Shown piece by piece: positions 1,393-32,632 of a stretch of 37,951 nucleotides of DNA. The stretch is from positions 1 to 37,951 of the forward strand of contig CAMBYH010000015.1 in assembly GCA_945872065.1 (NCBI GenBank), in the 5' to 3' direction. The position numbers and the translations under genes are program-made. The stretch comes from Arsukibacterium tuosuense. GTDB taxonomy: Bacteria; Pseudomonadota; Gammaproteobacteria; Steroidobacterales; GCA-2729495. The notes beneath the pieces are model-generated. The model was not told the DNA's origin. It ran no database searches and saw only the letters and a list, made by a program, of their open reading frames with translations. Numbering within the stretch: position 1 is the first letter of the stretch; each line of letters starts with the position of its first letter.

Positions 1393-2643
1393 ATGGCCTT
1401 CTCCATCCAGCGGCTGCTGCCCCAGGACGACCTGCTGCGGGACGCCACGGACCGGAGGCTCTGGACGTCCATCCTGATCAGCTCCCTCGGGGGCCAGCTC
1501 ACCCTGCTGGCCGTGCCATTGACGGCCGTGGTACTGCTGCATGCCACGCCGCTCCAGATGGCCCGCCTCACCGCCACCGAGATCAGCGCCTTCGTGCTGC
1601 TCTCGCTCCCCGCAGGGGTCTGGCTGGACCGGGTCTACAAGCTGCCCGTCTACATCATCGGCGAATCGGTCCTGGCACTGGCGGTCGCCAGTGTGCCCCT
1701 GGCCTGGTGGCTGGGGTGGTTATCCATGGAATGGCTGTACGTCGTGGCCTTTGCCTTCGGGGCGGTGTACACGATCGCAGGCAGCGCCGCCCAGATCGTG
1801 CTGACCCAGATCGTGCCCCGGGAGCGGCTGGTGGAGGCCCACGCCAAGAACGCGCTGGCCAACTCCACCGCGGAAGTTGCGGGACCCGGCGCTGCCGGCG
1901 TGTTGATCAGCCTGACGAGCCCCGCGCTGGCGCTCGTGGCGGATGCGGTGATGCTGACATTTTCTGCACTGATCCTCCGCGGCCTGCGCCTGAATGAGAC
2001 ATTGCACCCGTCGACCCAGCGCTTTCGCGCGGCACTGCTTACCGGCCTCTCCTTTGTCGCGCAGAACCGGCTGCTGGTAACGATGGCCTGCATCGTCGGG
2101 GGCTGGCAGCTGTGCCACAACGCCGCCCTGGTGGTGCAGATCCTCTTTGCCACCCCGGAACTCGGCCTGTCTGCCGGTGGCGTCGGGCTGTGCTACATCG
2201 CCCTGGGTGTCGGCACCATTCTCGCCAGCACCCTGGGCCACCGGCTCGCGGGCCGGATCGGTCCGGGCCCGACCCTGGTGCTCGGGCTGGCCATCTGTGG
2301 TGGTGGGTGGCTGATAGGTGCGGTCGCGCCCGCCGGGGCTCCCGGGGCCATCCTCTTTGCCCTCATGCTGACGGCCTTCGGCGCGGGCGCCACGCTCGTG
2401 TTCATCACTTTCCTCGCGCTGCGCCAGGCAGCAACCCCGGCGCCCCTCCTGGGCCGGATGACCAGCACGATGCGCTGGCTGATTCTCCTCCCCGCCGCGC
2501 CCGGGGTCCCGCTGGTCGCCATCGCCGCCTGGCGCCAGCCGATCATCCGCAACCTGCGCACCCTGCCCATGGCATCGGGAGCCCATCGGGCAGCGGATGG
2601 ACAGCTGGTCCCGGATTCACAACCCGGAGAATTCGTCCCGTAG
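1393..2643 (+). CDS. MFS transporter, EntS-like (MFS_3), apparently shortened near the C-terminus
   Basis: A 416-residue inner-membrane protein with about ten or eleven hydrophobic segments. The A-type motif GVWLDR follows the second segment and a late RMTSTMRW segment resembles the MFS_3 family (EntS-like exporters). After LPAAPG the protein passes within some ten residues to QPIIRNLRTLP, a tail that in relatives, as I recall them, comes only after two further membrane segments. No hidden coding stretch lies between in another frame, so this looks like an in-frame deletion of roughly 40 residues rather than a frameshift. The stop codon TAG is the TAG of a REP element. The gene is divergent from the Rieske oxygenase, so export or uptake of a related compound is possible. 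Function may be impaired. Confidence 0.85.
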   Translation: MAFSIQRLLPQDDLLRDATDRRLWTSILISSLGGQLTLLAVPLTAVVLLHATPLQMARLTATEISAFVLLSLPAGVWLDRVYKLPVYIIGESVLALAVASVPLAWWLGWLSMEWLYVVAFAFGAVYTIAGSAAQIVLTQIVPRERLVEAHAKNALANSTAEVAGPGAAGVLISLTSPALALVADAVMLTFSALILRGLRLNETLHPSTQRFRAALLTGLSFVAQNRLLVTMACIVGGWQLCHNAALVVQILFATPELGLSAGGVGLCYIALGVGTILASTLGHRLAGRIGPGPTLVLGLAICGGGWLIGAVAPAGAPGAILFALMLTAFGAGATLVFITFLALRQAATPAPLLGRMTSTMRWLILLPAAPGVPLVAIAAWRQPIIRNLRTLPMASGAHRAADGQLVPDSQPGEFVP

Positions 2644-2695
2644 GAGCGGCTTCAGCCGCGAAGGGGTGTGGGATCGCGCGTAAACGCGCTCCTAC
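2640..2695. repeat. REP pair (inverted, BIME-like) between convergent genes
   Basis: One arm reads GTAGGAGCGGCTTCAGCCGC (2640 onward), with its own small hairpin. The other, on the opposite strand, begins GTAGGAGCGCGTTTACGCGC (from 2695 leftwards). Both start with the REP head GTAGGAGCG. The TAG of each head is the stop codon of the adjacent gene: the MFS transporter on + and ubiD-like on -. REP pairs between converging genes often limit read-through or protect mRNA ends; that role is inferred here. Confidence 0.85.
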
Positions 2696-4188
2696 CAGAG
2701 GCCCTTCAGCCGCTCAGCGAGTTTCGCCACCTCGGCGGGGTCGGCCTGGCTGACGTCGGCGTACTCGGTGAAGCGCTCCGGGATCTTGATCGTGGCGTCG
2801 ATGCCCATCTGCTCACCCACGGTCGGAAAGCCCTGGGGCCCCTTCGGTGCGGAGGGGTCGAGGATAAAGGCCTGGCCGGAGCGATTGATGATGATATCGC
2901 TGTAGGGCTGGACCCGCGTCTGGATGGCCCACTCGATGGCGGAGAGGTCGTAAGGATTGACGTCCGGACCCACGACCACCGCCATCTTGGCGGTCCGGGG
3001 CCAGCGACCGGCAGCCCCCCAGAGAGCATGCAGCACGTACTTGCCAAACTCCGGATGCGGTTTGGTAGCACCGTCCACACTCAGCTGAACGATATAGGTC
3101 ATGTTCGGCGTGACGACGCAATCCTTCACTTCCGGGATCTTGCGCTGCAGGTCGGAGAGCATCTCGCCTTCGATAGGAATCAATCCCAGGTAGTTGTGGT
3201 CGAAGGGCGGCATCATCTCGATCGTCGCGTACCAGAGCGGGTTCTTCCGGTGGGTAATGGTCGTCACATCAAACAGCGGGAAGACCTGGTGCTTGTCGTA
3301 GTAACCCACGGAGTTGGAGTGCCAGCCGATGATCTGCTGGGGCACGTCCGGCTGAAAAACGCCTTCAATGACGAACTCCGCTGACGCGGGCACTTCCAGA
3401 TCCACGGTCTCGCACTTGACGAGCTCCACAGGCGAGCCCCGCAGGCCGCCGGCATAGTCGTATTCGTCGAGGCTGTAGGGCACGCCCGTGGCTGCGGCCA
3501 TATGAATGGCTGGATCACACTGGCAGGCAATGGCGATCTCGAGGGGCTTGCCCATGCGCTGCGCCTTCGCCAGATGCAGGCCCACGTGATTCATGGGCGG
3601 GTTCCAGAAGGCGAAGATCGACAGCTGCTTTTTCTGCTCGTGCTCGCTGTAGGTGCCGCCGTGGGGGTGCTGGCAGTTCCAGAGGCTGGTGAGGCGATAC
3701 CAGCCCACATTCCGGATCCCGGTCTCCGGGTCCTTGGTGACCACGACACCACCGCAAACGTAGGAGGCTCCCTCCTTGCCCAGCCACACGTGGGGGATCT
3801 GCTTGTCGATAGAGATCTTCTCCCGGGGAATCACCACGTCCTTGCAGGGTGCCTTCGCCCGGTCAACCATCACCGGCTTGTGCCAGGTGCTGCGGTCCGC
3901 CAGGATCGCCGCGTGCTTCAGCTTGGCCTCGATGGGGTCCCTGGTATCGATCGTGAGCGCAGTGCGTTCCCGGGTGCCGAAGGGATTGAAGATCACCGGA
4001 ACACCCGGGGTGTTGTAACCCACCAGGTTCTCCAGAATCAGCCCAGGGCCGCTGGTCTCGGCAAGCAGGCGCATGAGGGTCTGCAGTTCGTTGCTGCCGT
4101 GGGCGACATTGATCGGCGCCTTGACGTGCTTCAGCTGCCCCATAGTGTCGAGCTTCCCAAGAAACTCGCGCATATCCTTAAAGGCCAT
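2692..4188 (-). CDS. UbiD-family prFMN-dependent decarboxylase
   Basis: A 498-residue UbiD/Fdc-type protein. The start chosen is the ATG at 4188 (MAFKDMREFLGKLD) with CAGGA just upstream; an upstream in-frame ATG would add 26 residues through the operator region. In the prFMN domain, Asn160 and Arg165 (RNVGWYR) and His183 have the spacing of Asn168, Arg173 and His191 of Aspergillus Fdc1, as I recall it. The acidic pair Glu271/Glu275 in SAEFVIEG corresponds to the catalytic glutamate region. Such enzymes reversibly decarboxylate aromatic or alpha,beta-unsaturated acids using prenylated FMN made by UbiX, encoded at 6694-7290. The locus context with a Rieske oxygenase and SDRs argues for a catabolic enzyme rather than ubiquinone-pathway UbiD. 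Its TAG stop lies in a REP element. Confidence 0.92.
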   Translation of the reverse strand: MAFKDMREFLGKLDTMGQLKHVKAPINVAHGSNELQTLMRLLAETSGPGLILENLVGYNTPGVPVIFNPFGTRERTALTIDTRDPIEAKLKHAAILADRSTWHKPVMVDRAKAPCKDVVIPREKISIDKQIPHVWLGKEGASYVCGGVVVTKDPETGIRNVGWYRLTSLWNCQHPHGGTYSEHEQKKQLSIFAFWNPPMNHVGLHLAKAQRMGKPLEIAIACQCDPAIHMAAATGVPYSLDEYDYAGGLRGSPVELVKCETVDLEVPASAEFVIEGVFQPDVPQQIIGWHSNSVGYYDKHQVFPLFDVTTITHRKNPLWYATIEMMPPFDHNYLGLIPIEGEMLSDLQRKIPEVKDCVVTPNMTYIVQLSVDGATKPHPEFGKYVLHALWGAAGRWPRTAKMAVVVGPDVNPYDLSAIEWAIQTRVQPYSDIIINRSGQAFILDPSAPKGPQGFPTVGEQMGIDATIKIPERFTEYADVSQADPAEVAKLAERLKGLW

Positions 4189-4227
4189 CGAATCCTGCTC
4201 CCATGCTCGTGTGGCTGGTTTTAAACG

Positions 4228-4283
4228 CTGCAAACCATAGCATGGGGAAATGGGGACATGCCCCATTTTTACGGGGTTTGCAG
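4228..4283. promoter_or_regulatory. Nested inverted repeat in the divergent ubiD-like/SDR intergenic region
   Basis: The 139-bp gap between the divergent decarboxylase and SDR genes holds a perfect 8-bp inverted repeat, AAATGGGG...CCCCATTT (4248-4268, 5-bp spacer). It is flanked by a second perfect 9-bp pair, CTGCAAACC (4228-4236) and GGTTTGCAG (4275-4283). ATGGGGA is also repeated directly at 4242-4255. This is the layout expected of a shared operator, or a strong cruciform. No regulator gene is adjacent. Confidence 0.6.
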
Positions 4284-6042: not shown

Positions 6043-6192
6043 GTGAACCTGGCCGACATTAATTTTACGAACGGGCAGCCCGTGAAGCGGCTCACGCTGA
6101 CCAGTGGGGCCATCTATGCCGGCAACGTGGCGGCGCAGTTTCAGTCGGCCGAGCGGTTTGTGTTTCTGGAAGCGACACCGGTCGCGCCTTAA
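6043..6192 (+). pseudogene. Detached C-terminal remnant of the amide hydrolase
   Basis: In the same frame as the preceding hydrolase, directly after its TGA, 49 codons encode VNLADINFTNGQPVKRL and a segment with IYAGNVAAQF. This matches the family's usual C-terminal strand region (D-L-x-x-x-x-F, GxPVKxL, YAGxVxxxF). One TGG-to-TGA change explains the break. The remnant ends at a TAA that lies inside a REP palindrome (CCTTAAGG). Confidence 0.7.
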
Positions 6193-6203
6193 GGCGCTCC
6201 TAC
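6182..6203 (-). repeat. REP element between convergent gene ends
   Basis: On the - strand this reads GTAGGAGCGCCTTAAGGCGC followed by GA, the same sequence as the element after rpsT at 31381. Its TAG is the stop codon of the flavin split-barrel gene on -, and its central TTAA supplies the TAA that ends the hydrolase remnant on +. It contains a GCGCCTTAAGGCGC palindrome. Confidence 0.85.
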
Positions 6204-6682
6204 GGGGGAAGATTCGTTTCCCACTTCCAGCCGAAGCCCTTCGTGCTGTCGATCAGGCGGATCCAGGAGGGCGTCAGCTGCCAGAACGGCGCGCGCTGCA
6301 GACGGCCGGCAATGATTTTCTCGTTGTCGTCTTTCGGCCGGTCGAACAGGCGGCGCACGTCGGGAAACTTTTCAAGGTAGGCGTCCAGTGCCTTGAGGCG
6401 CGCCTCCCCTTCGAGAACCAGGGCCCGGCCTTCCACCTGCAGGCCGATCACCTCGTCCCAGGTCGCCACGTCCTGGTTGATTGCCCCGGTCACCCGGGCG
6501 TCGTGGTGCATTTCCCGGCCGTGCCGGGTCTTCAGGTCGGACACGAAGTAGAGATTGAGATCCGCATCGCTGGCGTAGAACACGGTGGCGGCCCAGGAAC
6601 GACCGTCCGCCGCCGTGGCCAGAGTGATGGTGCTGTGCCCCGCCAGCAGTTCACGAATCCGGGGCAGATGAGTGTCTGGCAC
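6200..6682 (-). CDS. Pyridoxamine 5'-phosphate oxidase-like flavin split-barrel protein (YhbP-like)
   Basis: A 160-residue protein of the PNPOx-like split-barrel superfamily, closest in feel to E. coli YhbP (UPF0306). The N-terminal part TITLATAADGRSWAATVFYA and YFVSDLKTRH match the first barrel strands and flavin-contact loop. The C-terminal IDSTKGFGWKWE resembles the TDNTLGFG ending of YhbP. Start is GTG at 6682, 11 bp after the ubiX stop, so the two genes form an operon. Members bind FMN, or sometimes F420 or heme, and many have no known reaction. Being cotranscribed with ubiX, which uses reduced FMN, suggests but does not prove a flavin reductase or carrier role. The stop codon lies in a REP element. 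Confidence 0.8.
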   Translation of the reverse strand: MPDTHLPRIRELLAGHSTITLATAADGRSWAATVFYASDADLNLYFVSDLKTRHGREMHHDARVTGAINQDVATWDEVIGLQVEGRALVLEGEARLKALDAYLEKFPDVRRLFDRPKDDNEKIIAGRLQRAPFWQLTPSWIRLIDSTKGFGWKWETNLPP

Positions 6683-31105: not shown

Positions 31106-31380
31106 GTGGCGAACACCAAGTCAGCAGCCAAGCGCGCCAAACAAGGCGAGCGTCGTCGTCAGCATAATGTGGCCCTCCGCTCGCGAATGCGGACCGCCAT
31201 CAAGAAGGTGGTCAAGGCCATCGAGGCCGGCGATACGGCGGAAGCCGCCAGTGCGTTCAAGGCCGGTGCCGCTGAGGTAGCGAGCATGGTGAACAAGGGC
31301 CTCACCCACAAGAACAAGGCTGCCCGGCACAAGAGCCGCCTGAACAAGGCGGTCAAGGCGCTGGCCACCAAAAAGAAGAA

Positions 31381-31384
<4 letters not shown>
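31106..31384 (+). CDS. rpsT: 30S ribosomal protein S20
   Basis: A 92-residue basic ribosomal protein beginning MANTKSAAKRAKQGERRR and ending ALATKKKK, full length for S20, which binds 16S rRNA in the small subunit. The start is GTG 31106 with GGAAG upstream. E. coli rpsT also uses a rare start (UUG) and is autoregulated at translation, as I recall. The TAG stop is the TAG of a REP element. Convergent with obgE. Confidence 0.97.

Positions 31385-32632
<1,248 letters not shown>

Follow-up and report, generated by a model that had tools for sequence, protein, structure and literature searches.

REPs of the GTAG superfamily often supply the TAG stop codon of flanking ORFs through their GTAG termini, as remarked in the parts of PMC3733652 (2013) drawn on here. 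In the sections of PMC2817692 (2010) used, REPs directly follow the stop codon of the rayt gene or lie at a very short distance from it, and the RepRanger work (PMC12306157, 2025), in the excerpts used, deals with E. coli REPs located within 15 nt of stop codons. According to extracts of PMC8266576 (2021), RAYTs cut at CT in vitro and GTAG is the portion of the REP recognised by the enzyme, presumably as a guide; its abstract terms the spread of REPs poorly understood. In the largely open-access literature searched, the titles and opening lines of abstracts announce no frame-tested count or orthologue test of REP stops. The phenomenon of TAG-stop REPs is already in print, and the present analysis confirms a published remark. 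Our addition concerns its cause: comparison with relatives shows that, as a rule, a REP occupies the former end of the gene.

The window (the whole stretch of 37,951 nt that was analysed) contains eight copies of GTAGGAG, of which four carry a hairpin and four, at 3760, 6997, 11982 and 16311, do not. As indicated by folding, each of the four intact REPs consists of GTAGGA, a 5-bp stem and a 4-nt loop, and displays the unpaired GTAG 5' of a short palindrome that marks the GTAG REP superfamily. The 22-nt units encode no gene and differ in this from autonomous IS200/IS605 elements. An Rfam scan of the window returned two tRNAs only. The REPs and the genes ending in them are arranged as follows.

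1393..2643, + strand: MFS transporter gene, ends in a REP head (PF07690, MFS_1, 65.3 bits)
2640..2661, + strand: REP, GTAGGAG head and 5-bp hairpin; TAG 2641-2643 is the MFS gene stop; fold -6.0 kcal/mol as DNA
2662..2673: 12-nt spacer inside the inverted REP pair, which spans 56 nt in all
2674..2695, - strand: inverted REP; TAG 2694-2692 is the UbiD gene stop; folded
2692..4266, - strand: UbiD-family decarboxylase gene, ends in a REP head, start uncertain (PF01977, 162.4 bits)
6182..6203, - strand: single REP; TAG 6202-6200 terminates the flavin split-barrel gene; folded
6200..6682, - strand: PNPOx_N (flavin split-barrel) gene, ends in a REP head (PF01243, 39.7 bits)
31106..31384, + strand: rpsT, ribosomal protein S20, ends in a REP head, inferred GTG start (PF01649, Ribosomal_S20p, 85.2 bits)
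31381..31402, + strand: single REP; TAG 31382-31384 is the rpsT stop; folded
31458..31485, - strand: degenerate REP with head GTAGGAAC, within the C-terminal end of ORF 31411-32508 in a different frame (determined by hand), not a stop

The earlier note had claimed that the TAG of GTAGGAG is the in-frame stop at all four intact REPs of the window, and this holds to the exact coordinate for the MFS, UbiD, PNPOx_N and rpsT genes; the 49-codon open frame at 6043-6192, which it took for a hydrolase remnant, is indeed terminated by the TAA of a REP core. The proportion of four in four does not extend to the genome. The genome under study (G000; 2.71 Mb in 130 contigs) contains 222 copies of the full REP pattern GTAGGAGCGNNNNNANNCGCGA, a high copy number typical of the GTAG REP superfamily, and 295 GTAGGAGCG heads; reversed controls gave 0 and 46 copies, respectively. 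Our sample consists of 60 stretches (315 kb) around 100 listed copies, to which the window and the end of one RAYT contig were added; it contains 107 of the 222 full REPs and 125 of the 295 heads. About half of the full REP heads (56/107) are the stop codon of a called gene. Among the others, six are read through in another frame, 19 face a gene on the opposite strand, and 26 lie downstream of a same-strand stop that begins 6-38 nt upstream (23 REPs) or farther away (3 REPs). Taken together, 85 of the 107 sit at gene ends (the 56 stops, the six read through near the end and the 23 within 38 nt), matching the intergenic and 3'-end location of the superfamily. Scored by head alone, 71 of 125 GTAGGAGCG heads are stops of called genes, compared with 22 of 1621 GTAG occurrences elsewhere.

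These counts lie far above the control expectation: when heads are displaced by at most 100 nt, 0.15 stops per 107 heads are expected with offset zero left out and 0.43 with it included. The reading frame is equally biased. In 56 of the 62 genes still open at the head, the TAG lies in frame, well beyond the one third at which the earlier note would have given up its claim (p about 1e-20); one third is a fair null because, of the CT and CC dinucleotides found in gene tails, 300 of 951 have the codon phase required. The genes were called with a home-made model of codon usage whose training set was the DNA under analysis, which could favour the view that heads near gene ends hit stops by luck or that the calls themselves produce the pattern. 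This is highly improbable: the genome counts refute chance, the pattern recurs in two congeners (see below), and same-frame matches in a third, G006, back 58 of 72 REP-ended genes. The coincidence of REP heads with stop codons far above chance is confirmed. Of the interpretation first offered for it, the placement at gene ends is supported, and a TAG-preferring transposase is possible. Survivorship, in which heads would remain intact only at stops, was considered and rejected, as 41 of 49 REP-like heads off stops (those classed as 'other' or as 'just after a gene end') carry an intact GTAG.

Related genomes repeat the pattern to different degrees. In contig stretches of two congeners, chosen for listed heads, stops account for 25 of 43 heads in G007 (two read through) and for 12 of 23 in G002 (three read through); the three in G002 lie at least 212 nt before the end of the called gene. 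In G012, a member of another genus whose stretches were picked around REPs as were those of G000, only 4 of 30 full REPs are stops and none is read through, a weak effect. The degree therefore differs between lineages. G017, from another genus of the same family, has 234 REPs, many of which, in the listed part, form close arrays with a spacing of 47-170 nt and have other loops.

Individual sites have a traceable history. The corresponding stop carries the head in 31 of the 37 orthologues from G007, 20 of the 39 from G002, 2 of the 40 from G003 and none of the 38 from G006, and a search for closely related empty sites in G007 accordingly found almost none. At the 31 sites shared with G007, the stem is the same in 16, another fully paired stem in one, otherwise different in seven and without a standard core in seven; at the 20 shared with G002, the corresponding numbers are 2, 7, 2 and 9. 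These alignments indicate that the head persists while the hairpin behind it changes, presumably by conversion or re-insertion. At four orthologous loci of G002 (L201, L228, L229 and L237), the GTAG or GTAGGAG of the gene end is immediately followed by other repeat-like sequences, of the AAATGGGGACAGATTTATTT and AAAAGGTACCGGACACTTAGTTATT types. Double heads also occur: at C21:2689, C9:7426, C19:29453, C6:60665 and C6:39181 of G000, a partial REP GTAGGAGCGCC lies 12-13 nt ahead of a full REP, and the first TAG is the stop.

A RAYT gene, whose presence the earlier note had proposed to look for, was found. The 153-residue protein encoded at C51:323-781 matches the RAYT model NF047646 with 139.3 bits (cut-off 80). 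REP pairs lie on both flanks of its gene, and its stop codon is itself a REP head. The Pfam family Y1_Tnp picks out three genes in G000, and tblastn with the C51 protein four. Two other Y1 proteins that were scanned score 66.8 and 64.4 bits, under the cut-off; their genes are L031 (C127) and L033 (C67). One more Y1 transposase-like gene, G000:C23:11155-11577, is known from its tblastn match only. The congener G006 contains no full REP of the GTAGGAGCGNNNNNANNCGCGA pattern and no tblastn match to the C51 RAYT, and its 10 copies of GTAGGAGCG compare with 140 of the reversed control.

The REP-free genome G006 allowed us to ask where genes end without a REP. Among 72 REP-ended genes (71 and rpsT), 58 have a same-frame match there of at least 50% identity that reaches within 40 residues of the end. 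The proteins have the same length in 25 of 58 pairs (controls 28/55) and end within one residue of each other in 38 of 58 (controls 33/55); because of this last agreement, REPs did not clearly shorten proteins. The G000 protein is shorter in 21 pairs and longer in 12 (12 and 15 among the 55 controls), and the shift relative to controls is non-significant (Mann-Whitney p = 0.12). By these alignments, the TAG of the REP usually sits at the position of the former stop. We also considered that REPs donate stops by cutting a gene short at any point of its tail; this is unsupported given the non-significant shortening.

The bases and residues just ahead of the head carry a signature of their own. 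CT or CC immediately precedes 58 of 107 heads (25 of the 56 stop-borne ones and 33 of the 51 others), an excess consistent with cutting at CT by a RAYT. REP-ended proteins terminate in leucine in 25 of 71 cases versus 9 of 156 controls (p = 4e-8) and in proline in 14 of 71 versus 12 of 156 (p = 0.013). The REP-free G006 orthologues are also leucine-rich at their ends (9/58 vs 15/248, p = 0.026), and the leucine is kept there for only 8 of 21 leucine-ended genes. The excess of terminal leucine and proline suggests insertion at a CT or CC site that would be retained when the TAG falls in frame.

We tentatively favour an explanation in which a resident RAYT inserts REPs after CT or CC and the insertion is tolerated when the TAG falls in phase at a gene end. 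The REPs would be non-autonomous units of the RAYT (REP-associated tyrosine transposase) system. The enzyme would place the unit right after CT, where such enzymes are known to cut, or after CC, and the unit would carry GTAG along as its guide. Where CT or CC fills positions 1 and 2 of a leucine or proline codon that is the last or nearly the last of its gene, the product would read CTG-TAG or CCG-TAG; insertion would be tolerated because such an in-phase head ends the protein almost unchanged, whereas in the other two frames a junk tail would be added and the insertion mostly lost. The stop would then anchor the head, leaving the hairpin behind it exchangeable over time. The frame bias, the CT or CC before heads, the leucine and proline ends, the unchanged lengths and a RAYT gene with a REP-head stop all argue for this sequence of events. 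Several observations count against it: CT or CC is missing before 31 of the 56 in-frame heads, a frame ratio of 56:6 is very strong if selection against short tails is to account for it, and insertion anywhere in the last codons would predict clear shortening, whereas the observed shift is small. Moreover, selection alone does not predict the TAG-enriched orthologues or the depletion of GTAG among REP-free stops that we describe next, both of which bear on a model that reverses the order of events. For IS200/IS605 elements, the insertion point lies on the 3' side of a target tetranucleotide. By the same logic, the RAYT may put the unit directly 3' of a pre-existing GTAG; genes ending in GTAG would be safe landing sites, and the stop would therefore be older than the REP. 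We consider this possible, with confidence on the low side. The unchanged protein lengths agree with it. So does the frequency of TAG stops in G006, 19 of 58 among orthologues of REP-ended genes and 40 of 219 among the remaining operon-end genes (p = 0.02), but G003 orthologues alone show no excess (10/35 vs 13/49). Pooled over G006 and G003, whose pairs have genes in common, the odds ratio is 1.81 or 1.86 when both are filtered alike (p = 0.038 or 0.032) and 1.74 with mixed filters (p = 0.056). When only pairs with the same end are considered, a selection made after the data were seen, the ratio is 2.95 or 2.79 (p = 0.004 or 0.009); in these same-end pairs TAG is found in 18 of 40 REP-ended genes, resembling TAG controls (7/18) and not TGA controls (1/18). 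Although 37 of the 58 G006 orthologues stop with TGA, so do 13 of 18 orthologues of TAG-ended G000 controls, and 4 of these 18 have TAG (TGA controls 0/29); stops turn over fast, and the power of the test is therefore low. Where a gene lies close to a REP that does not supply its stop, the G006 orthologue ends in TAG in 3 of 21 cases. At single loci, the UbiD gene has a TAG stop in three of four 80-87% relatives that lack the REP (the fourth, in G006, has TGA), and gene #49 (C20:29538) ends in ATG-TAG in both G003 and G006, where the GTAGGAG REP is absent. In G002 the UbiD stop is TAA with a REP head beginning 11 nt downstream, and at L245, in a genome that is farther removed (75% identity), the UbiD stop likewise carries a REP-like head.

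Stops that carry no REP also bear on a pre-existing GTAG. G precedes 35 of 115 REP-free TAG stops in G000, G007, G002 and G012 but 39 of 75 in the REP-poor G003 and G006 (p = 0.004, a comparison that, like several of our statistics and together with the same-end subset above all, was chosen after the data were seen), while G before TGA is alike (13/125 in REP-rich and 17/233 in REP-poor genomes); genes near REP-like strings were omitted in all genomes except the REP-free G006. The depletion fits a consumed pool of GTAG stops, and a lineage bias is possible. TAG usage varies between genomes for other reasons too: among REP-free operon-end genes it is 35/93 in G000, 40/91 in G007 and 19/40 in G002 (REP-rich), 21/49 in G012 (30 full REPs), and 21/73 in G003 and 54/253 in G006 (REP-poor). 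We used the operon-end baseline in place of a comparison that ignored operon position and overstated the TAG excess. Further against a pre-existing GTAG as target, the published work, in the extracts used here, puts GTAG in the element and the cut at CT (PMC8266576), and the leucine and proline excess suggests that more than GTAG is involved. A fuller version, in which the RAYT or REP lands on existing host GTAG stops as its target tetranucleotide, the hairpin is later swapped and plain GTAG stops are consumed in REP-rich genomes, is likewise possible, at a slightly lower confidence. Alternatively, a REP could insert a few bases past a stop, after which the native stop would be lost or a small deletion between TAG or GTAG copies would fuse it with the TAG of the REP. 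C7:2764 speaks for capture or fusion at some loci: in G000 and G007 a GTAG stop, a 15-nt spacer and a REP follow one another (the G007 head being GCAG), and in G002 the REP lies directly on the stop. C13:18574 resembles it, gene #44 terminates six codons earlier, at a TAG, in G007, and the first TAG of the double heads points the same way, but these are a handful of cases, and proteins are not longer overall, as the counts of longer proteins given above attest; as a general route, capture is unlikely. Between insertion followed by selection and an existing TAG as target, which are close rivals, we leave the choice undecided; the tests, modest and partly post hoc, lean towards existing TAG stops as the target.

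If target choice is responsible, stop codons offer a mobile element safe shelter, and its insertion site becomes predictable and open to test. If selection alone is responsible, the frame bias measures the strength of selection against short C-terminal tails. Either way, genomes like G000 offer a count-based test.

The REPs of G000 resemble several known systems in part. With IS200/IS605 they share the Y1 enzyme family, and the guide and target logic described for those elements, in the sources as far as drawn on, underlies the target model; the IS ends are absent here and the REPs are non-autonomous. Inverted REP pairs at a set spacing recall the REPIN/BIME arrangement in the parts of PMC3116915 (2011) used (19 of the 23 inverted pairs in our sample span 54-57 nt), but here 61 of the 107 sampled full REPs are unpaired by the strict pattern. 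As in the RAYT/TnpAREP and REPtron systems (PMC2817692 and PMC8266576, in the sections cited), a short Y1 transposase gene lies between REP pairs, and a Xanthomonas campestris REP, GTAGGAGCGCGCTCGCGCGCGA, listed with the RAYT/REPtron work in the portions consulted, is nearly identical to the G000 REPs; different from those systems as described there, the rayt stop codon itself is a REP head here, in a RAYT gene known from its sequence. The closest match is the GTAG REP superfamily (PMC3733652), which in the parts used has the same GTAG head, small hairpin, inverted pairs and preference for the 3' ends of genes, and likewise supplies flanking ORFs with TAG stops; the parts of its main text drawn on hold no stop count, frame test or orthologue comparison, whereas the present analysis provides all three.
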